Positions 8,373-26,234 of a stretch of DNA of 64,000 bases are shown in pieces. The notes under the pieces are model-generated. The model was not told the DNA's origin. It worked only from the letters and a program-made list of their open reading frames with translations, and ran no database searches. The stretch spans positions 1 through 64,000 of the IMG/VR virus record IMGVR_UViG_3300048924_000586. The stretch is one strand, 5' to 3'. This DNA comes from a virus. Within the stretch, counting starts at the first letter, position 1. Each line of letters opens with the position of its first letter. The position numbers and the translations under genes were made by a program.

Positions 8373-8681
8373 ATGACTAAAATCACCAGCGATCAGCTGG
8401 CGAAAATGCACGACCGTCGCCTGAGAGGCGAAAGCTGTGCCGATATCGCCAGATCCTTCGGTCTCAACGAGATGACCGTCTACCAGCGTCTTCGTCGCGA
8501 GTTCGGCCTCGACGTCTATAAGTTTCCTCCGCCTGTTGCTGCTAACGACAACGTGCCAGGCCGAGTTCGCAAGATGACGGCGCACAACGGCGGTTGCTCT
8601 ACGCTGAGCGGCAAGATGCCGGTGACGCTTGTTCGCATCCCGACCATTGACGGTCCGGCACCAGCGCAGGTGGCAGCATGA
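8373..8681 (+). CDS. helix-turn-helix protein, first gene of the main early operon (102 aa)
   Basis: Residues 8-45 (KMHDRRLRGESCADIARSFG, then LNEMTVYQRLRREFGLD) form a homeodomain-like HTH of the resolvase/Trp-repressor type. VAANDNVPGR follows at about residue 57. CACAAGAGGAGAGAC precedes the ATG. As the first gene after the repressor-2 promoter it holds the position of a cro-type regulator, but the fold differs from Cro and the role is inferred only from place. Confidence 0.75.
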   Translation: MTKITSDQLAKMHDRRLRGESCADIARSFGLNEMTVYQRLRREFGLDVYKFPPPVAANDNVPGRVRKMTAHNGGCSTLSGKMPVTLVRIPTIDGPAPAQVAA

Positions 8682-13741: not shown

Positions 13742-14800
13742 ATGCAGCTGAAAACCAGCCGCACCGAGCTCGCGCGCGTCGTTGGCGCCGTCGGTAAGGT
13801 CATTGAAGCCAGAAACACCATTCCGATCCTGTCCAACATCCTGCTGGAAGCTGAGGGTGACCGCCTTCGCCTGACCGGCACAGATCTCGACATCCAGGCG
13901 ACGGCATCCGCGCCTTGCAAGATCACGACACCCGGCAAGGTCACTGTCAGCGCCAAGCTACTTGGCGATATCGTCCGCAAAGCCGGCGCGGATGACATCT
14001 CACTTGACCTGAAGGATGGTCGTCTGACCGTGAAATCAGGGCGTTCGCGCTTTGTCTTGGAGACCTTGCCAGCATCGGACTATCCGGATCTCGCCGTCGG
14101 TACCTATGACGCTGATTTCGAAATTGATCTTGCGGCGCTGTTCGCACCAGTGTCGTTTGCGATCTCGTCGGAGGAAACCCGCTATTATCTCAACGGGATC
14201 TTCTTCCACAGCGAAGAAGGCAAGCAAGCCGTGGCGGTAGCTACCGATGGCCATCGCCTTGCCCGCAACCGTGGTCCCGAACTGCCAGTTTTCGCTGGCA
14301 TCATCGTGCCGCGCAAGACGGTCGGTCTTCTGCCGAAGGGCTCGGCGAAGGTGTCGGTCTCGGATACCAAAATTCGCATCGAGACAGCCGACCTCCTGCT
14401 CGTGTCCAAGCTAGTCGACGGCACATTCCCCGACTACGAGCGCGTCATTCCGCGCGAAAACGACAAGACGGTCACCGTCAACCGCGATGAGATGATGAAG
14501 GCCGCCGATCGCGTCGTCACCGTATCGTCGGAGAAGGGACGCACAGTCAAGCTGAGCATCGCACCAGGCTCTATTGCGCTGGCCGCACGCTCCGATGCTG
14601 GATCGGCCGAAGATGAGGTGGCCGCCGAATACAGCGGGGAGCCATTCGATGTCGGTTTCAACAGCCAGTATGTCCGCGACATCTTCGCCGTTCTGCCGGC
14701 CGGCGACGTCAACCTTCGTCTTCGTGATGGAAGCTCGCCTGCGCTAATCACTGGCGGCCTTGAGGGCTGGGACGGCGTCTTGATGCCGATGCGGGTCTAA
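13742..14800 (+). CDS. dnaN: DNA polymerase III beta sliding clamp (352 aa)
   Basis: This is a full-length three-domain beta clamp. It has ARNTIPILSNILLEAEGDRL and RLTGTDLDIQATA in domain I, ETRYYLNGIFFHSEE and VAVATDGHRLAR in domain II, and DGTFPDYERVIPRENDKTV near the start of domain III. The last residues, VLMPMRV, match the conserved clamp terminus that lines the peptide-binding pocket. It tethers polymerase and other partners to DNA. Phage-encoded clamps of the bacterial type are uncommon. A methyltransferase later in this operon carries a clamp-binding motif. Confidence 0.95.
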   Translation: MQLKTSRTELARVVGAVGKVIEARNTIPILSNILLEAEGDRLRLTGTDLDIQATASAPCKITTPGKVTVSAKLLGDIVRKAGADDISLDLKDGRLTVKSGRSRFVLETLPASDYPDLAVGTYDADFEIDLAALFAPVSFAISSEETRYYLNGIFFHSEEGKQAVAVATDGHRLARNRGPELPVFAGIIVPRKTVGLLPKGSAKVSVSDTKIRIETADLLLVSKLVDGTFPDYERVIPRENDKTVTVNRDEMMKAADRVVTVSSEKGRTVKLSIAPGSIALAARSDAGSAEDEVAAEYSGEPFDVGFNSQYVRDIFAVLPAGDVNLRLRDGSSPALITGGLEGWDGVLMPMRV

Positions 14801-15111
14801 TGACCTCCACCGAGCAGGGAGGCGGGCTGTGGCGGCCCGCCAACGCAGCTGAAGGCCATAACTTCGAGGACAACTGGTGCGGTCACTGCTTGGAGGAGCG
14901 CGGCGAGGATTGGGAAGACGAGTTCGGCAATCATGTCGAGGGTTTTTGCCCGATCCTCTCGTATGCGCAGTCCGCCGGTCAGCCTGAGCATTGGGTGCTC
15001 CGACACGGCATGCCTTGGTGCACCGCTTTCCGCCAGGATCCAGAGCGGCCAGCGCGATGCCTTTTCACAGAGGAGATGCCATTTGGCTCCCATCCCCAAA
15101 CCCCAATCTAG
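14800..15111 (+). CDS. Cys/His-rich hypothetical protein (103 aa)
   Basis: It starts MTSTEQGGGLWRPANAAEGH and has cysteines arranged as WCGHC (residues 26-30), FCPI near 50 and WCTAF near 73, with nearby His, which suggests a zinc-binding fold. The start overlaps the TAA of the clamp gene (TAATG). Its 3' end contains the ribosome-binding site and start of the nuclease gene, giving a 29-nt overlap. The function is unknown. Confidence 0.65.
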   Translation: MTSTEQGGGLWRPANAAEGHNFEDNWCGHCLEERGEDWEDEFGNHVEGFCPILSYAQSAGQPEHWVLRHGMPWCTAFRQDPERPARCLFTEEMPFGSHPQTPI

Positions 15112-16015
15112 CACGCTACTCTCCATCCAGACCGCGCTGGAAACCGGCCACGATGACTGGGAGTCAGTCGGCGTGCCCGCCGGCGATATCGGCGTTGAAT
15201 GCGACCGGGCGATCTGGCTGGCCTTTCGCCGCGCGTCGTCGCCCGAGTTCATTGACTGGCGGAAGCGTCGCATTTTCGAGCGAGGCAATATCGAGGAAGA
15301 TCGACTGCTTGATCTGCTACGCCTGGTCGGCTGCGAGGTGTGGGGAGAGCAGGATCGCGTTCGTGCCGCCGGTGGCCATTTGCGTGGGAAGATCGACGGC
15401 CGCGTGGTCGGCATCCTCGAAGCGCCGAAAACCGAGCACATCGTCGAGTGCAAATCGTCGAAACAGGAGATCTTCAACAAGGTGAAGAAGCATGGAGTGA
15501 AGGTCGGCAAGCCGGAGCACTACGCGACCTTCCAGTTCTACATGCACGGCCTCGGCATCAGCCGTGTCTACTACATGATGTCGAACAAAAACGACGAGGA
15601 TCTGCACCTCGAGCGCGTCGAATATGACGTCGAGTTCGCGATCCGTGCCGTCGCCCGCATAGAACGCATCATCAACATGCCGGAGCCGCCCATCCGCCTC
15701 TGCAAGAAACGCGACGACTTCCGCGGCATCTTCTGCCGACAGGCTGCGGTCTGCTGGGGTGAAGAGATGCCGCGCGCACACTGCCGCTCTTGCATTCACT
15801 CCACGCCTCTGATGAACGGCAATGCGGCATGGGATTGCGCCAGATGGCAGCAGCCGTTGTCGCTTGCCGATCAGGCAGCCGGGTGTCCGGCGCATCTTTT
15901 TATCCCCTCCATGCTCGCCGGCCTTGAAATGGTGTCGGCCGATCAGGAAGCGGAGACCATCACCTACCGTCGACCAGACGGCACGACTTGGACTGACGGC
16001 GCCACCACCGCCTGA
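15083..16015 (+). CDS. PD-(D/E)XK nuclease-like protein (310 aa)
   Basis: The region LRGKIDGRVVGILEAPKTEH followed by IVECKSSKQEIFNKVKK supplies the D ... ECK pattern of the PD-(D/E)XK superfamily. KPEHYATFQFYMHGLGISRV matches the following conserved Q-x-x-x-Y segment of RecB/YqaJ-type nucleases. C-terminal cysteines (IRLCKKRDDFRGIFCRQAA, WCARCxxC-like spacing later) recall the Fe-S or zinc cluster of Cas4/AddB-like nucleases. The TTG start at 15083 is chosen because AGAGGAG lies 8 nt upstream. It probably resects DNA for the Sak4-like recombinase. Confidence 0.7.
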   Translation: MAPIPKPQSSTLLSIQTALETGHDDWESVGVPAGDIGVECDRAIWLAFRRASSPEFIDWRKRRIFERGNIEEDRLLDLLRLVGCEVWGEQDRVRAAGGHLRGKIDGRVVGILEAPKTEHIVECKSSKQEIFNKVKKHGVKVGKPEHYATFQFYMHGLGISRVYYMMSNKNDEDLHLERVEYDVEFAIRAVARIERIINMPEPPIRLCKKRDDFRGIFCRQAAVCWGEEMPRAHCRSCIHSTPLMNGNAAWDCARWQQPLSLADQAAGCPAHLFIPSMLAGLEMVSADQEAETITYRRPDGTTWTDGATTA

Positions 16016-16040
16016 ATTTACCACCACAGAGGAGACTGCC

Positions 16041-16478
16041 ATGACCGCATACCGCCCAGCGAATTTCGACGCACGCCTACTTTCCTACCGTCCTTTGCTT
16101 ATTCGGATGGCCACAAGATACGGCGAGCCAGCCGACCGTGAAGACCTGGTGCAAAGTGCTCTCGCGCGCGCCATGGAGAAATGGTTGGATTGCCGTGATG
16201 GCTTCGCCGCATGGCTGCGGGGCGTAATGCTCGCCGAGATCCAGATGTACCGCACCGCTCGGCGGCCGCGAAAGGGTGTAGCGGCGAACGACAATACGCC
16301 CGCTACGCAGGAGGACACCGTTGCTGCCGCGCAAGCCATTAGTCGCTGCCGTAATCCAGACATCATGATTCAGGTTGGAATGGGGGCGACCATGCAGGAT
16401 ATCGCCGCTTCGCGCGGCATCTCCAAGCAGGCGGTAAGCGTCAAGGTGCGTGCCGACCGAGCAAGGCTGGCCGCCTGA
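16041..16478 (+). CDS. ECF-sigma-factor-like protein (145 aa)
   Basis: Residues 10-70 match sigma-70 region 2 (LLSYRPLLIRMATRYGEPAD, then REDLVQSALARAMEKW). Residues 108-142 form a region 4-type HTH (GATMQDIAASRGISKQAVSV, then KVRADRARLAA). The linker carries GVAANDNTPATQ. It could direct host RNA polymerase to phage promoters or act as a regulator with a sigma-like fold. A CCACCACAGAGGAGA leader lies before the ATG, with a GGCG/CGCC hairpin around CCACCAC at 15998-16012. It overlaps the helicase gene by one base. Confidence 0.65.
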   Translation: MTAYRPANFDARLLSYRPLLIRMATRYGEPADREDLVQSALARAMEKWLDCRDGFAAWLRGVMLAEIQMYRTARRPRKGVAANDNTPATQEDTVAAAQAISRCRNPDIMIQVGMGATMQDIAASRGISKQAVSVKVRADRARLAA

Positions 16479-18205
16479 TGCTTGAGCTCCGATATTATCA
16501 GCGCGATTCTCTGGACGCGCTTTACAAGTATTGGGAAGAGGGCGGTGGGAATGGTCTCATCGTCCTACCGACCGGCGCGGGTAAGGCGCTCGTCATCGCA
16601 AAACTGATCGAGGAGTTGCTCGCTGACTTCCCGTCGATGCGCATCCTCAACATCACCCATGACGCCCGACTCGTTGAACAGAATTTCAAGGAGTTCATCG
16701 GGCTCGCACCGTTTGCGCCGGCTGGCATTTACTCTGCCGGCCTTAACCGTCGAGATGCCCATGCGCAGGTTCTATTCTGCGGCATTCAGTCGGTATGGAA
16801 CAAGGTTGAGCAGCTCGGCGACATCGATCTCATCATCGTCGATGAGGCGCATGGCATCTCGCGCAACGCCAACACCCAGTATGGCAAGTTTTTTAAATCG
16901 GTCCGCAAGCACAATCCAGATAGTCGGACATGCGGCACGACGGCGACCGACTATCGTATGGATTCAGGTCGCCTGACGGACGCGCTCGATGAGGACGATT
17001 CCCTTGATCCGATCACCGGCGAGACGGTGAAGTTCAAGCTGTTCGACGATGTTGTCTACGAGATCGGCATTGGCGAGCTTATCGAGCAGGGGTATCTCAC
17101 GCGACTGACCAGCCAGAAGACCACCTCGAAAATCGATCTGAAAGGCGTCGGCACACGCGGCGGCGATTATATCCCCGGCCAAGTGTCCGAGGCCGCCGAG
17201 CAGATCATTGAGGAGGCCATCGCCGAGGACATGGCGCTTTCAGAGGGCAGGCGGGCTGGGCTGTTCTTCAGCACCAGCAAGGAAAACGCGCAGCATATCG
17301 CTGACGCGATTAATCGATATGGCCGCAGGTGCGCCGTCCTGACCAGCGATAATGCCCACCAGACGAAGGAGATCTTCGAGAAATTCAAGTCCGGCTACTA
17401 TTGGGCAATCTCGTCGGTGAGCATGATCACGACCGGCACCAACTTCCCGTGGGTGGACTTCATTTCGCTGATCCTGTCGACGAAGTCGGCCGGAAAACTG
17501 GTGCAGATCCTCGGTCGCGGCACTCGCAATTTTCCCGGCAAGACAGACTGCCTGGTCGCAGACCACGGCAAGAACCTCGCCTATCACGGCCCGATCGACC
17601 AGATCCGGCCGCGCGAGCCTGGCAAGGGGTTGGGTGACCAGCCGAAGAAGCTGTGCCCGCAGGACAAGCCGGACATTCAAGGCAAGTGCGGTTGTGGCGA
17701 GCTTATCGCCATCTCGATCATGGAATGCCAGTGCTGCGGCTATATCTTCCCGCCGAATGAGGAGGAGAAGATCACGGCGAAAGCAGACCTCACGCCAGTG
17801 CTTTCAACGGAGAAGCCGTGGCACGAGGTTTCATCTCGTTCCTTCTTCCACCATCCGGGCAAGGAGGGGAAACCCGATTCCGTCAAGGTGACATACCTTG
17901 TCGGGATGAAGTCGGTGAACGAGTGGATCTGCTGCGCTCACTCCGGCTTTCCGAAGTCCAAGGCTAACCGCTGGTGGATGACCCACGGCGGGAAGACGCC
18001 ATATCCGAATGACGTCATCGAGTTCCTTGAACGTCAGCATGAGTTGATGGACACTACCGAGGTTCAGCTCGATTACGGCCGAAACCCGAAATATCCGGAT
18101 ATCGCGGCCCACCGCGTCGCGCCGGCGAATGATAATCACGAGCCTGCGGCGAACGATAACCGACGGCGACCGGCTTGGATGGATGAGGAGGATATTCCGT
18201 TCTGA
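16478..18205 (+). CDS. superfamily 2 DNA helicase with SSB-like C-terminal tail (575 aa)
   Basis: Motifs occur in order: Q-like RYYQRDSLDAL (residue 5), Walker A LPTGAGKALVIAKL (about 29-42), DEAH box IIVDEAHGIS (about 119), motif III-like GTTATDY, and motif VI QILGRGTRNF (about 345). The Walker A Thr/Ser after Lys is replaced by Ala, which is unusual for an active ATPase. A zinc-finger-like CGCGELIAISIMECQCCG follows at about 403. The tail has two ANDN motifs and ends WMDEEDIPF, a close copy of the SSB C-terminal tip. The ATG overlaps the TGA of the sigma-like gene. Confidence 0.85.
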   Translation: MLELRYYQRDSLDALYKYWEEGGGNGLIVLPTGAGKALVIAKLIEELLADFPSMRILNITHDARLVEQNFKEFIGLAPFAPAGIYSAGLNRRDAHAQVLFCGIQSVWNKVEQLGDIDLIIVDEAHGISRNANTQYGKFFKSVRKHNPDSRTCGTTATDYRMDSGRLTDALDEDDSLDPITGETVKFKLFDDVVYEIGIGELIEQGYLTRLTSQKTTSKIDLKGVGTRGGDYIPGQVSEAAEQIIEEAIAEDMALSEGRRAGLFFSTSKENAQHIADAINRYGRRCAVLTSDNAHQTKEIFEKFKSGYYWAISSVSMITTGTNFPWVDFISLILSTKSAGKLVQILGRGTRNFPGKTDCLVADHGKNLAYHGPIDQIRPREPGKGLGDQPKKLCPQDKPDIQGKCGCGELIAISIMECQCCGYIFPPNEEEKITAKADLTPVLSTEKPWHEVSSRSFFHHPGKEGKPDSVKVTYLVGMKSVNEWICCAHSGFPKSKANRWWMTHGGKTPYPNDVIEFLERQHELMDTTEVQLDYGRNPKYPDIAAHRVAPANDNHEPAANDNRRRPAWMDEEDIPF

Positions 18206-18207
18206 TC

Positions 18208-18236
18208 TTGACAAATTTGTAAATATCAACATGATG
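18208..18236 (+). promoter_or_regulatory. promoter with repressor-2 operator
   Basis: TTGACAAATTTGTAAA is identical over 16 bases to the sites at 8276 and 60607. The palindrome ACAAATTTGT spans 18211-18220. A weak -10 (ATGATG at 17-nt spacing or CATGAT at 16) follows. It begins right after the helicase stop codon and would restart transcription at 18294 under the same repressor. Confidence 0.7.
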
Positions 18237-18293
18237 CATTGCATGTAAAGCGCCTACCAAGCGCGACGACACACACCACCAGAGGAGATATCG

Positions 18294-19067
18294 ATGACTA
18301 GAAGACAGGCGGAACCAGCTTTCGACCCATTTGCCATCGCGACAGGCCATAACGGCGGTCCGCCGCTCGATGACGAGCCCGCGAACGACAACGAGCCCGC
18401 CTACGTCGCCATCTTTACCGAGATCGACGACCTCTATGGAGAGGCCAAGAACTGGGCCGACGGCGATGCCATCTCCAGTCAGGAGATGCACGACCAGATC
18501 GAGAAGCTGTATACCGGTCTGCACGAGGCGGGTAAACGCGCGGACGATCTGCGCGTCGAGGAAAAGAAGCCGCTCGACGACCAAGTGAAGGCGATCCAAG
18601 ATCGTTACAATCCCTACATCCAGCCGAAAAAGGGCAAGGTCGACCGCGCAAAGGCGTCGCTCGGCGAACTGCTGGCCCCATGGCGCAAAAAGCTTGCCGA
18701 CGACAAGGCCGCCGAAGCCGCGAAGAAAGCCGCAGAGGCAGCGGCGGCCACAAAGGCGGCCGAGGATGCGATCCGCTCGTCATCCGGCAATCTTGGTGCG
18801 CGCGAATACGCCGAGGAGCTGCTCGCCGACGCGAAGAAGCTGGAGCGCGGCGCGAAGCGTGCGGACAAAGCCGCAACCACCGGCTTGGGGTTGCGGTCGG
18901 TCTGGAACGTGAACATCGCCGACGAGACGAAGGCGCTGGACTGGGCGTTCGAGCATGCGCCAGGCGAGTTCATGGCAATGGCGCTGTCGCTGGCCGAAGA
19001 GCAGGTTCGAAAGGGTGTGCGCTCGATCGAGGGATTCTCGATCGTTGAGGACAAGGTGGCTCGTTAG
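18294..19067 (+). CDS. hypothetical coiled-coil protein with GHNGGPPL motif (257 aa)
   Basis: The N-terminus contains ATGHNGGPPLDDEPANDNEP, a GHNGGPPL motif common in rhizobial phage proteins joined to the ANDN motif. Residues 60-150 are a long Ala/Lys/Glu-rich helix (KKLADDKAAEAAKKAAEAAA) likely to be a coiled coil. The C-terminal 60 residues look globular (GLGLRSVWNVNIADETKALD). CCAGAGGAGATATCG precedes the ATG, behind a GCGC hairpin with loop CTACCAA (18250-18264). It is the first gene on the 18208 promoter. The function is unknown. Confidence 0.7.
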   Translation: MTRRQAEPAFDPFAIATGHNGGPPLDDEPANDNEPAYVAIFTEIDDLYGEAKNWADGDAISSQEMHDQIEKLYTGLHEAGKRADDLRVEEKKPLDDQVKAIQDRYNPYIQPKKGKVDRAKASLGELLAPWRKKLADDKAAEAAKKAAEAAAATKAAEDAIRSSSGNLGAREYAEELLADAKKLERGAKRADKAATTGLGLRSVWNVNIADETKALDWAFEHAPGEFMAMALSLAEEQVRKGVRSIEGFSIVEDKVAR

Positions 19068-19285
19068 GAGTCTGCCTTGAGAGCGTCGATCACCGCAACA
19101 ATCTTTGCCGCTTCTTCGATCTCGCAAACCCATACGCCGTCTTTGTACGGATCCAGACCTGGAAAACCGATCCGTTGCGCCATTTCTGTAACGAACCCGT
19201 AGCTGATCCTGTCTTCGGGGTTTCGACCTTTTGAGCGGCATATAGCTTTGGCCGCAATTTCGATCCGCCTCACATCGTTAGCCAT
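19064..19285 (-). CDS. small hypothetical protein, antisense to operon direction (73 aa)
   Basis: The product starts MANDVRRIEIAAKAICRSKG and continues DGVWVCEIEEAAKIVAVIDA, a compact alpha/beta layout common in rhizobial phages. GGAGGA lies 6 nt before the ATG. It is convergent with the upstream gene, sharing 4 nt at the stops. It is read against the early operon, so it may be expressed in the lysogen. Confidence 0.65.
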   Translation of the reverse strand: MANDVRRIEIAAKAICRSKGRNPEDRISYGFVTEMAQRIGFPGLDPYKDGVWVCEIEEAAKIVAVIDALKADS

Positions 19286-19369
19286 TGTGTCCTCCGGTTG
19301 AACGACTCTCAGGATACCACACCACCCAGCGCGCCACCAACGTGTTGGTTTCACCACAGAGGAGAGAAT

Positions 19370-19939
19370 ATGAACCCGTTACCCGAGGGACGCTACGGCG
19401 CCATCCTTGCTGACCCTCCGTGGTCATTCAGAACATATGGCAAGCAGGACGTGGCGCCCGCGCGCGGCGCACAGCCGTATTCCGTCATGTCTCTGGCCGA
19501 CATCAAAGCACTGCCCGTTGCTGACGTCGCTGCCAAGGACTGCCTTTTGTTCATGTGGACCGTTTCGCACTTGCAGGGCGCCGCCATTGAGGTTGCGGCA
19601 GCATGGGGCTTCACGCCTGTGTCGATCGCTTTCGTTTGGGACAAGGGGCGCATGGGCATGGGCTACTGGACCCGCCAAGAGGTGGAGGTTTGCCACCTGT
19701 TCAAGCGTGGAAAGCCGCGTCGTTTGTCGCGTGGGGTCCGATCCGTGATCCGCGCACCGCGCCGCGAACATAGCCGCAAGCCTGATGAGCAGTACGGCCG
19801 GATCGAGCAGCTGGTCGGCGGCCCGTATCTTGAGCTCTTCGCCCGGCAGGCGTGGGCTCGTTGGTCGGCATGGGGCAACCAGGTCGGCAAGTTCGAGGCC
19901 GACAATGATAACGACCTCCTGCAGGCGAGGGCCGCCTAA
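19370..19939 (+). CDS. MT-A70-family adenine methyltransferase (189 aa)
   Basis: YGAILADPPWSFRTYG (residues 9-24) carries the DPPW catalytic motif of the MT-A70 (Ime4/Mettl3-like) group. KDCLLFMWTVSHLQGAAIEV and the C-terminal YLELFARQAWARWSAWGNQV match the rest of the fold. Such phage enzymes methylate adenine in DNA, often to evade restriction. The in-frame ATG at 19370 is preceded by CACAGAGGAGAGAAT, behind a CCAAC/GTTGG hairpin. It ends with NDNDLLQARAA. It is the first of three methyltransferases in this operon. Confidence 0.85.
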   Translation: MNPLPEGRYGAILADPPWSFRTYGKQDVAPARGAQPYSVMSLADIKALPVADVAAKDCLLFMWTVSHLQGAAIEVAAAWGFTPVSIAFVWDKGRMGMGYWTRQEVEVCHLFKRGKPRRLSRGVRSVIRAPRREHSRKPDEQYGRIEQLVGGPYLELFARQAWARWSAWGNQVGKFEADNDNDLLQARAA

Positions 19940-20757
19940 TGGCGAAACTCACCAAAGCACAAGCGAAGGCTCACGCGCAGGCGTGTGACCTGCTGACGAA
20001 GCCGGTCCTGACAGAAGAAGACAAGGACTTCGTTCTCAAGAACTGGAACGAAGGCGCCAACCACGTCAACGGCGCGGCCGGCGCGTTCTTCACGCCATAC
20101 GATATGGCGTTCGATTTCACGATCGACGCCATTGGGCAGGGCGGTTACGGCGGCCGGATCATTGATCTTTGCGCGGGGATCGGCATGCTCTCTTATGCCT
20201 GTTGGCATCGCAGCCACCAGAAGGCGCGCATCACCTGCGTCGAGCGCAATCCAGACTACCTCTCTGTTGGGCAGAAGATCCTGCCAGAGGCGGAGTGGAT
20301 CCTTGCTGACGTGCTGGACGTGATCGACATGGACCTCGGTCGTTTTGACGTGGCCATCAGCAATCCGCCGTTCGGCGCGATCAAGCGGGAGAAGAACGCT
20401 CCGCGGTATTCGGGCAAGGACTTCGAGTTCCACGTTATCGATATCGCGGCGCATCTCGCGCGCGAAGGCGCGTTCATCGTCCCGCAGATGTCGGCCGGTT
20501 TCAACTTCAGTGGCGGCGGCCACTACCGGCGGCAAAAGGACGGCAAAGCAGTCAAATTTCAGGAGTTGACCGGCCTTCACTTCGAGGCAGGCTGCGGCAT
20601 CGACACCAACTTCTACATCAACGATTGGAAAGGCGTGTCGCCCATGTGCGAGATCGTGTGCGTGGACTTCGGGCCGGAGAATCAGGCTGTTGAAGCTGTG
20701 GTCCCGGCCAATGACAATGTGCCTGCTCAGGCGGACTTGTTCGGGGCTGCGGCATGA
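19939..20757 (+). CDS. N6-adenine DNA methyltransferase with C-terminal clamp-binding motif (272 aa)
   Basis: Class I SAM-dependent methyltransferase: motif I is RIIDLCAGIGMLSYACWH (about residue 74), and the catalytic motif IV is ISNPPFGAI (about 139). FFTPYDMAFDF near residue 50 resembles the substrate loop of M.TaqI-like enzymes. The tail reads VVPANDNVPAQADLFGAAA. QADLF (residues 264-268) fits the QL(S/D)LF beta-clamp-binding consensus and is close to QADMF of DNA polymerase III alpha. With a clamp gene in the same operon, replication-coupled methylation is likely. The start overlaps the upstream stop (TAATG). Confidence 0.85.
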   Translation: MAKLTKAQAKAHAQACDLLTKPVLTEEDKDFVLKNWNEGANHVNGAAGAFFTPYDMAFDFTIDAIGQGGYGGRIIDLCAGIGMLSYACWHRSHQKARITCVERNPDYLSVGQKILPEAEWILADVLDVIDMDLGRFDVAISNPPFGAIKREKNAPRYSGKDFEFHVIDIAAHLAREGAFIVPQMSAGFNFSGGGHYRRQKDGKAVKFQELTGLHFEAGCGIDTNFYINDWKGVSPMCEIVCVDFGPENQAVEAVVPANDNVPAQADLFGAAA

Positions 20758-23722: not shown

Positions 23723-23882
23723 TATCCAGATAGTTGAGCAGGTCGACCAGATCGTCGGCCTGCTCCATGTCCAGACCGTCTTGGAGAACGCCTTTAACCT
23801 TCGCCGGTAGGCCGGTGAAGATGTCGAAGACCGTCCACGAACCATCATTCTCTTTGCGCATGTCATAGCGGTTCTTATGCAT
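23694..23882 (-). CDS. small hypothetical protein (62 aa)
   Basis: The product starts MHKNRYDMRKENDGSWTVFD, then IFTGLPAKVKGVLQDGLDME; the DGSWTVFDIFTG core recurs in small rhizobial proteins. GGAGGT lies 6 nt before the ATG. It is read leftward against the early operon and overlaps the end of the cytosine methyltransferase by 29 nt. The function is unknown. Confidence 0.7.
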   Translation of the reverse strand: MHKNRYDMRKENDGSWTVFDIFTGLPAKVKGVLQDGLDMEQADDLVDLLNYLDIKRREETQR

Positions 23883-23903
23883 GCCGGTACCTCCGGAGGG
23901 TTT

Positions 23904-26234
23904 ATGCCTGATCTTACCACGCAGCCAACCACCCCAAAAGACCTCGCCCTCTCATACGTCTATCGCGGTGTCCCGGTGTTTCCGTGCCGGGCCGCCGACG
24001 AGGTGACGGACCAGTTCGACCCCGATACCGGCGAGATCATCGTCTACAAGGCGAAGACCCCGCTGCGCTCCAACGGCTTCAAAGGCGCGACCGTAAACGG
24101 CGGTCTCGTCGGCCGTATGTGGGACAATTACCCGTCTGCCATGGTCGGCATCCCCACCGGTGAGCAGCTCGGCGCATGGGTGCTCGACGTTGACGTTCAC
24201 AAAGACGAAAATGGTAACGTCATCAATGGTTACGAGACGCTCGCTCGACTCGAAGATAAGCACGGCACATTGCCGGAAACCGCCCGTGCCAAGACGGCAG
24301 GCGGCGGCACCCACTATTATTTCAAGCACGTCCCGAGCGTCCGAAACCGCGGTGGTCTCGGCGCCGGTCTCGACGTGCGTGGATCCGGTGGCTACGTCAT
24401 CGCCCCCGGCAGCGTGACCGGCGACGGTCGAGAATATCTATGGGTGGACTTCGACGGCGAGGGCATGCCGGACATCGGCGATGCCCCAGAATGGCTGCTC
24501 GATCTGGTCACGCCCCCGCCAGCCACGTCCGGCCCGGTGGACTATAGCTATGAGCCCGGCACGAACGACGCCTATATCGATCAGGCAATCCGGTTGGAGC
24601 TTGAGGAGACGGCGGCTGTCCCGATGGGCGGTGGCCGCAACAATCGTCTCAATCAGGCATCCTATGCACTTGGCACATTCGTCGGCGCTGGCGCTTTGCG
24701 GGAGAGCGAGGCGCGAGACTTATTGCAGGGCGTGGCGCGTGCGTGGGCTCGCGACTGGACGCAGTGCTGCAAGACGATCGATAATGGCTTGAAGGCTGGC
24801 ATGGCGAACCCGCGCGTCATTCCCGAACGGACGATGGCCGACACGACGCCATCGATCGACGCCGAGCGCATGGTCGCGAACACGCTGGCCAAACGAGAGC
24901 ATCCCACCCCCGAACCCGTCGTGGAAGATGACGAGCTGCCCGAGTACAAACTTGAGGCGGTGCGAGAGCTTGAGGATCTGACCTATCCAGGTGGACTGGT
25001 GGAGGATCTCATCGACTGGATCGTATCGTCAGCCGAGCAGCCCAGCCGGCCTTTGGCTCTCGCTGCCGTGTTGCCGTTCGTCGCCTCGCTTTGCGGACCG
25101 CGGTACTCGACGACGAGCCGAGACACGCGCCCGAACATCTATTCCGTAGCCCTCGCTGAATCGGGTTTCGGTAAGGATCACGCGCGCTCGCAGATCAAAC
25201 GGCTGCTGATGTCTGATCACGGCGTATTCGAGAAGTTCAGCGGCCCGGCCCGTATCATGTCGGCATCAGCGCTGCGCGAGGTCCTCGAAGCCAACCAGTC
25301 CGTCAATTGTCAGATCGACGAGTTCGGCGGCTTCATTCGCGATATCACTGACCGAAAGGCTGGCAGCCACCAGCGCGCGATCTCCACAGACTTACGCGAC
25401 TACTATTCCGCCAGCTCAACCTTCTTCGAGGGAGCAGCCTATCGCGGCACGCCCCCGAAGCGGATCTACAACCCAATCTTGTGCGTCCACGGCACATCGA
25501 CGCCTGAGCAGTTCTGGTCGGCCTTGTCATCGGCCAGCGCCGAGGATGGCCTGCTGCCGCGTCTGATCCTGTTTCATATCACCGGATCAAAGCCGGCAGT
25601 GGTGAAGCCCACCAAGACCGTCCGCGACGTGCCGTACCTCCTCATGGAGCGCATGGCGACCGTGGCCGGTATCGATGTGGCCAAGAAGCGCGGAAACCTC
25701 GGCAAGGTCGGTTACTCGTCCGACACGGCGCCGTCGGGTGAGGTCAAGCCGCATGTCATCCCATGGACGCCGGATGCGGAAGGCTTGCTGCGGGCGGTCA
25801 AGGAGACGATCGAGGAAAAGGAGAGGGCGGTCGCGGCTGATGCGCAGCCATTTGTTCGCCGCATCGTCGAGAACGCCATCAAGCTGGCCATCGTCGTCGC
25901 TGTCGGCCGTGACCCGGTCGAGCCGGTAATCAACGAGGAGGTCTTTGAATGGGCGGCTGCCGTGGCGTGGACCTGCGCTGCTGCGATGCTCTCGGAGGTC
26001 GGTGAGCGCCTGGCGGACAACCAGCGTGAGGCGAACTACAAAAAGATCGCCGGGCTGATCAAGAAGGCCAAGGGCGGCATCACCGAAGGCAAGCTGGCAG
26101 ATCGATGCAAAGCTATTGATGGTTGGCAACGCAAGGAGATCCTTGAGGACCTTCAGAAGACTGGTCAGGTCGAGTTTGCCGCCAATGACAATAAGCCAGG
26201 CAGGCCGTCTCGGCGATTGATATGGGTTGGGTAA
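23904..26234 (+). CDS. primase-polymerase with DUF3987-like helicase region (776 aa)
   Basis: The N-terminal 200 residues match the bifunctional primase/polymerase (PrimPol) domain: GVPVFPCRAAD at the start, AWVLDVDVHKDENG (catalytic Asp pair about residue 93), KTAGGGTHYYFKHV and GYVIAPGSVTGDGRE. Residues 350-700 resemble DUF3987, with a P-loop-like SGFGKDHARSQIKRLL (about 421) and DEFGGFIRDITDRKAG. It should prime and unwind at the phage origin. FAANDNKPGRPS is near the C-terminus. The start at 23904 has GGAGGG 3-4 nt upstream. A terminator and a candidate origin follow. Confidence 0.85.
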   Translation: MPDLTTQPTTPKDLALSYVYRGVPVFPCRAADEVTDQFDPDTGEIIVYKAKTPLRSNGFKGATVNGGLVGRMWDNYPSAMVGIPTGEQLGAWVLDVDVHKDENGNVINGYETLARLEDKHGTLPETARAKTAGGGTHYYFKHVPSVRNRGGLGAGLDVRGSGGYVIAPGSVTGDGREYLWVDFDGEGMPDIGDAPEWLLDLVTPPPATSGPVDYSYEPGTNDAYIDQAIRLELEETAAVPMGGGRNNRLNQASYALGTFVGAGALRESEARDLLQGVARAWARDWTQCCKTIDNGLKAGMANPRVIPERTMADTTPSIDAERMVANTLAKREHPTPEPVVEDDELPEYKLEAVRELEDLTYPGGLVEDLIDWIVSSAEQPSRPLALAAVLPFVASLCGPRYSTTSRDTRPNIYSVALAESGFGKDHARSQIKRLLMSDHGVFEKFSGPARIMSASALREVLEANQSVNCQIDEFGGFIRDITDRKAGSHQRAISTDLRDYYSASSTFFEGAAYRGTPPKRIYNPILCVHGTSTPEQFWSALSSASAEDGLLPRLILFHITGSKPAVVKPTKTVRDVPYLLMERMATVAGIDVAKKRGNLGKVGYSSDTAPSGEVKPHVIPWTPDAEGLLRAVKETIEEKERAVAADAQPFVRRIVENAIKLAIVVAVGRDPVEPVINEEVFEWAAAVAWTCAAAMLSEVGERLADNQREANYKKIAGLIKKAKGGITEGKLADRCKAIDGWQRKEILEDLQKTGQVEFAANDNKPGRPSRRLIWVG

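Follow-up and report, generated by a model that had tools for sequence, protein, structure and literature searches.

Why should a phage methyltransferase end in a peptide that resembles those with which bacterial proteins bind the sliding clamp? The question is raised by the IMG/VR virus record IMGVR_UViG_3300048924_000586, a 69.8-kb record of which we analyzed positions 1 to 64,000 (here, the window). An open reading frame (ORF) at positions 19939 to 20757 on the plus strand encodes a 272-amino-acid class I S-adenosylmethionine (SAM)-dependent methyltransferase with the C terminus PANDNVPAQADLFGAAA (ending also given as VPANDNVPAQADLFGAAA), and a gene for a DnaN-type sliding clamp lies upstream. 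An initial annotation had proposed that this tail binds the clamp and that new DNA is methylated at the replication fork, so that phage DNA is never unmodified. Below, we ask whether the tail is a genuine clamp-binding peptide, which clamp it would bind, and what a tethered enzyme might do.

Results

The methyltransferase tail carries a conserved clamp-type motif

The tail peptide VPAQADLFGAAA contains QADLF (residues 264 to 268; positions 20728 to 20742, plus strand). As the initial annotation had claimed, this motif fits the bacterial beta-clamp consensus, given as QL(S/D)LF in PMC9690074, and it resembles the QADMF of polymerase (Pol) III alpha; Escherichia coli DnaE carries QADMFGV at residue 920. 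Among the ORFs of the window, it is the sole C-terminal match to Q-x-[SDAETP]-[LMI]-[FL]. It follows a predicted disordered linker (residues 245 to 263; 20671 to 20727, plus strand) that varies among relatives, and residues 247 to 272 fall below a predicted local distance difference test score (pLDDT) of 50 in the AlphaFold2 model, as is expected of an accessible peptide of the QL[SD]LF type.

Nearly all close relatives with a complete C terminus among the first 42 found on viral contigs end in Q-x-x-L-F (QADLF, QASLF, QPSLF, QHSLF, or QLSLF), with linkers that differ in sequence and length. The wider set of relatives was thinned to 67 representatives (<75% identity), and its tails include QLDLF, QMDLF, QLALL, and QMSLL after unrelated linkers. 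We counted Q-x-[SDAENTGP]-[LMI]-[FL] in the last 30 residues and found it in 32 of the 67 representatives, compared with a mean of 0.94 and a maximum of 5 in 1,000 shuffles of the same tails; the motif was present in 21 of 1,239 neighboring ORFs (1.7%). When the third position was left free, it was S or D in 66 of 87 matches. On a tree built without the tails, the motif appeared in many lineages, on unrelated linkers and with at least 17 state changes. Across 40 related tails, all six leucine codons are used at the L position of the motif, and therefore conservation acts on the protein level; such purifying selection across relatives is what a beta-clamp client should show.

The motif is short and the tail is rich in A and P, and so a chance match in a low-complexity tail has to be considered. 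We regard it as exceedingly improbable, given the conservation far above both shuffled tails (32 of 67 versus 0.94) and neighboring ORFs, the unrelated linkers, the consensus-type substitutions (S or D at position 3), and the synonymous codon variation, which together rule out such an origin. On this sequence evidence, QADLF is not a chance match. We also rejected the idea that QADLF is part of a repeated ANDN motif (described below), since many proteins have ANDN but no clamp motif, and in other hosts the clamp motif is found without ANDN.

Relatives on large plasmids of Pseudomonas, Paraburkholderia, Agrobacterium, and Rhizobium end in QLSLFDAA, QLDLFAMAA, or QLALF, and in the Pseudomonas plasmids the motif follows long proline-rich linkers. 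As a specificity control, we used the co-translated MT-A70-type methyltransferase encoded directly upstream (19370 to 19939, plus strand; PF05063), whose stop codon overlaps the start codon of the tailed methyltransferase at 19939. It has no clamp motif, and neither do any of 31 homologous tails (0/31), so that tethering of this partner as well is not supported.

The clamp has an intact pocket, and the tail probably targets the host clamp in general

The ORF at 13742 to 14800 (plus strand) encodes a 352-amino-acid protein that matches PF00712, PF02767, and PF02768, all three DNA_pol3_beta domains, over its full length and scores above the NCBIfam dnaN cutoff (TIGR00663). Its closest solved sequence relative is 5wce, a DNA polymerase III beta subunit (E value, 1e-81). 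The gene lies 5.1 kb upstream of the methyltransferase gene on the same strand, which confirms the complete dnaN-type clamp that had been annotated about 5 kb upstream. Aligned to E. coli DnaN, the peptide pocket is mostly identical, with a few conservative changes; the identities (E. coli numbering) are R152, L155, T172, G174, H175, R176, L177, P242, R246, V247, N320, Y323, V360, M362, P363, and R365. TDGHRL, P242, R246, V247, N320, Y323, and the MPMR end are kept in this clamp and, with minor changes, in 12 related phage clamps.

A dnaN gene was found in all 22 tested records of the close clade (L003 to L035). It was absent from 26 of 28 further records, some of which are perhaps fragments; many of these still have a canonical QLDLF or QLSLF. 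The complete genome of Rhizobium phage RHph_N28_2 has no dnaN, and its enzyme ends in QLSLFGDAA. Thus, the pairing of the tail with the phage's own clamp, as first proposed, holds only in the close clade, and we rejected dependence on a phage-encoded clamp as a general rule because many motif-bearing phages and plasmids were found without dnaN. For the same reason, the tail must also work with the host clamp, which is probably its general target. No DNA polymerase of the PolA, PolB, or Pol III alpha type was found in the virus record, and so host Pol III probably copies this phage.

Two further observations concern the choice of clamp. This phage encodes a clamp, presumably for use with host Pol III, but no recognizable polymerase of its own. 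At position 2 of the motif, A, P, or H is favored in clamp-encoding phages and L is commoner in those without a clamp, a difference that is confounded by phylogeny.

Relatives in Krischvirus phages carry a gp45-type tail

T4-like phages with relatives of the methyltransferase carry a gp45-type clamp (for Ochrobactrum phage OC, gp45 is taken from PMC7139368, as the profiles used here missed it), and QxxLF was found in none of the T4-like relatives examined. The methyltransferase of Krischvirus Phi1 has a new linker and ends in GTLSDLFDI, while the DNA polymerase of the same phage, gp43, ends in ASLTDLFDI, a likeness that would be expected of a gp45 client. The GTLSDLFDI end is also present in phage GoldenSnicker and in two viral contigs, the latter with some linker changes. 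gp43, gp55, and gp33 are known to bind gp45 through C-terminal epitopes that can stand in for one another and sit on variable linkers (PMC2988020). Judged by its C termini, a single enzyme family thus appears to carry tails for two clamp types, and this tail swap is the strongest new evidence, at the level of sequence, for a clamp tether.

Several relatives weigh against this reading. A few close ones lack the Q (L017, NDLF; L135 and L136, DLPLF; L149, PLDLF). The motif is missing from all seven distinct actinobacterial tails and from the only distinct clostridial one, even though DnaN is the clamp of their hosts. The Pseudotevenvirus-type relatives end in NLFTFTIE, unlike their own gp43 (SLNTLFGDDW in RB16); we discarded this ending as a gp45 motif, as it has no clear match to the gp43, gp55, or gp33 ends of that phage. 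The T4-like relatives from Sinorhizobium and Ochrobactrum phages (phiN3 and OC) have no clamp motif, and no gp45-type tail was found in the T4-like or jumbo-phage relatives from RB16, KP15, phiN3, AS-szw, and GAP32. Because several T4-like or jumbo-phage, actinobacterial, and clostridial tails are without a motif, tethering would be common but not universal.

Even so, the conservation on unrelated linkers, the consensus-type substitutions, the intact pocket, and the gp45-type tail of the Krischvirus phages strongly support the proposed clamp-binding tail, and we consider that QADLF very probably acts as a clamp tether. A peptide of this kind might act mainly by blocking or displacing host clamp clients, which would tilt replication in favor of the phage and leave methylation a secondary role. 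The SocB toxin uses the same kind of interaction to block the clamp cleft (PMC9690074), and the QADMF of Pol III alpha is similar. However, the catalytic motifs hardly vary within the family, and the protein occurs on large plasmids, which must not kill their host; both make blocking of host replication less likely. Moreover, the Krischvirus tails match the clamp of their own replisome, and an inhibitor would harm the phage's own replication. We therefore hold this explanation to be very unlikely.

The enzyme fits an N6-adenine methyltransferase

The methyltransferase matches phrog_3820 over residues 1 to 250 and PF05175, and the AlphaFold2 model has a class I methyltransferase fold (predicted template modeling score, 0.76). 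SAM-binding motif I, DLCAGIG (20164 to 20184, plus strand), is invariant or nearly so among 23 homologs. In motif IV, SNPPFG (20359 to 20376, plus strand), which is of the amino-methyltransferase type, the S, N, first P, and G are invariant and the second P and the F are at least 90% conserved in the same homologs. SAM motif I and a (N/D/S)PP(F/Y/W) motif IV in a class I fold are the features of N6-adenine methyltransferases, and the enzyme fits this type as judged only from SNPPFG and the modeled fold. These two agree with the N6-adenine assignment of the initial annotation.

The fold does not separate a DNA from an RNA substrate. The nearest solved folds are METTL5 (Z score, 18), PH1948, CamA, and M.TaqI (Z scores of 14 to 15 for the last two); the structure matches also include type I M subunits, and neither these nor M.TaqI or CamA rank first. 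DNA and RNA adenine methyltransferases thus both match, and RNA m6A enzymes such as METTL5 among the nearest folds weaken the case for a DNA substrate. The substrate might accordingly be RNA or protein, with the tail only localizing the enzyme near the replisome. The best matches, METTL5 and PH1948, are RNA-type enzymes, and the methyltransferase has no recognizable target recognition domain. Against this, the DNA enzymes CamA and M.TaqI match too, the PHROGs label for the family is DNA methyltransferase, and a clamp tail on an enzyme that does not act on DNA would make little sense. We find a non-DNA substrate unlikely and infer DNA mainly from the clamp tail and the phage context.

The clamp and methyltransferase genes lie in one replication module

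Between the clamp and methyltransferase genes are co-directional genes for a Cas4-type exonuclease, a sigma-like factor, a superfamily 2 helicase (16478 to 18205, plus strand; phrog_16, ResIII/DEAD) of a replication/recombination module, an exonuclease-like protein, and the MT-A70-type enzyme. A DNA primase or primase-polymerase-like protein of the replication module follows at 23877 to 26234 (plus strand; phrog_3022). The genes from clamp to methyltransferase are mostly close-set or overlapping, in line with the annotated single transcription unit. Co-transcription is nevertheless only plausible, because the MT-A70 gene is preceded by a 299-bp gap and there is a promoter-like site at 18208, a match within chance expectation. 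A 97-codon antisense ORF (19067 to 19357, minus strand) lies between the exonuclease-like and MT-A70 genes; it had no PHROG match and no relatives among the fetched loci.

Motifs in other methyltransferases and a recurrent ANDN motif

In another methyltransferase family, unrelated to the first (phage 16-3 p097 and TM3_3_14B gene 56), QPDMF or QGDMF stands right after the catalytic domain in 3 of 14 tails (e.g., L175, 21371 to 22042, and L044, 11204 to 12001), and these tails possibly mark a further clamp-tethered family. Relatives of the GANTC methyltransferases (the phiLM21 p027/16-3 p096 family) end in RQGELF or RQGEMF (L132, 9098 to 9772; L062, 7891 to 8562); QGELF or QGEMF, a possible clamp motif, is present in 2 of 10 tails. 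These endings are suggestive of tethering in further methyltransferase families.

A further recurrent protein motif, [AP]-A-N-D-N-x-P, is often located within 35 residues of the C terminus in unrelated proteins. In the window, it is encoded on the plus strand at 8541, 12688, 12712, 16284, 18125, 18149, 18381, 20707 (in the methyltransferase linker), 23681, 26181, 27451, 28358, 29111, 34517, 54557, 63068, and 63619. It occurs about 11.5 times per 10,000 amino acids in loci of Rhizobiaceae and Brucella-type phages, with one match in all shuffled proteins, and was not found in the loci sampled from other alphaproteobacteria, from other bacteria, or from T4-like phages. Its codons vary. In the 6.9-Mb Rhizobium genome that holds L052, 18 of 20 sites of the corresponding DNA pattern fall in one ∼70-kb prophage region, and a scrambled control pattern gave 1 site. 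No paper on this motif was found in the literature searched.

Discussion

The explanation that we prefer, and consider likely as a whole, is that the methyltransferase docks onto the clamp and methylates nascent phage DNA along with replication, probably to protective effect. QADLF on its disordered linker would dock the enzyme onto DnaN-type clamps that stay on the DNA once the fork has passed; in this phage, these would be clamps of its own and very likely host clamps too. Physical binding would concentrate the enzyme on nascent phage DNA, and methylation, probably of adenine N6, would thereby be coupled in time to replication. The likely benefit would be that restriction enzymes or regulators of the host meet daughter molecules only after these have been modified. 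For the function of the tail taken separately, we lean toward replication-coupled DNA methylation.

A tethered enzyme could also mark nascent DNA for regulation rather than protection, for instance in replication control, strand discrimination during repair, or mimicry of CcrM GANTC methylation. In sinorhizobial phages, NPPY/F/W methyltransferases are encoded within replication modules; several of these enzymes are GANTC specific, and the authors of that work interpret them as regulatory (PMC5537653). However, no similarity could be detected between the GANTC methyltransferase of phage LM21 and the family described here, for which no target sequence is known, and we view a regulatory purpose as conceivable but doubtful. 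Restriction protection and regulatory marking could both be possible consequences of tethering.

By analogy, the nearest functional counterpart of the clamp-docked enzyme is DNMT1-PCNA, in which a DNA methyltransferase with a clamp-binding peptide (PIP-box) acts on newly replicated DNA. That system is eukaryotic, modifies C5-cytosine, and uses an unrelated enzyme and clamp peptide, whereas the tail described here is C-terminal, borne by mobile elements, and adapted to DnaN or gp45. The beta-clamp clients MutS, MutL, DnaE, Hda, and Pol IV use the same type of pentapeptide in a disordered region for the same DnaN pocket; the available portion of PMC9690074 names no DNA methyltransferase as a partner of the bacterial clamp. 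The Krischvirus methyltransferase ends nearly as gp43 of the same phage does, but the known T4 gp45 clients (gp43, gp55, and gp33) are a polymerase and late-transcription factors, not methyltransferases. The plasmid enzymes M.EcoGIX and M.BceJIII are likewise mobile-element adenine methyltransferases that act with replication but, according to the accessible part of PMC7736820, they do so with DNA polymerase I on single strands, and no clamp motif is reported there. CcrM-like GANTC methyltransferases of alphaproteobacterial phages (phiLM21 p027) are adenine enzymes in phage replication modules, but p027 has no detected sequence similarity to the family and no motif. Insertion sequence (IS) transposases that bind the beta clamp show that mobile elements use the host clamp via a short motif (PMC4549789), for transposition rather than modification. 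The literature searched, which excluded bioRxiv preprints and most subscription papers, yielded no report of a DNA methyltransferase tethered to the clamp in phages or bacteria.

More broadly, we think it reasonably probable that widespread phage and plasmid methyltransferases are clamp tethered by convergent tails matched to the clamp (QxxLF for DnaN and TLxDLFDI for gp45) and that mobile elements generally rely on replication-coupled modification, in a prokaryotic parallel to DNMT1-PCNA. A single family with tails suited to both clamp types would amount to a natural experiment. If this is true, DNA methyltransferases would join the list of bacterial clamp clients, and tethering would explain how progeny DNA is kept modified in phages and plasmids that use the host replication machinery.
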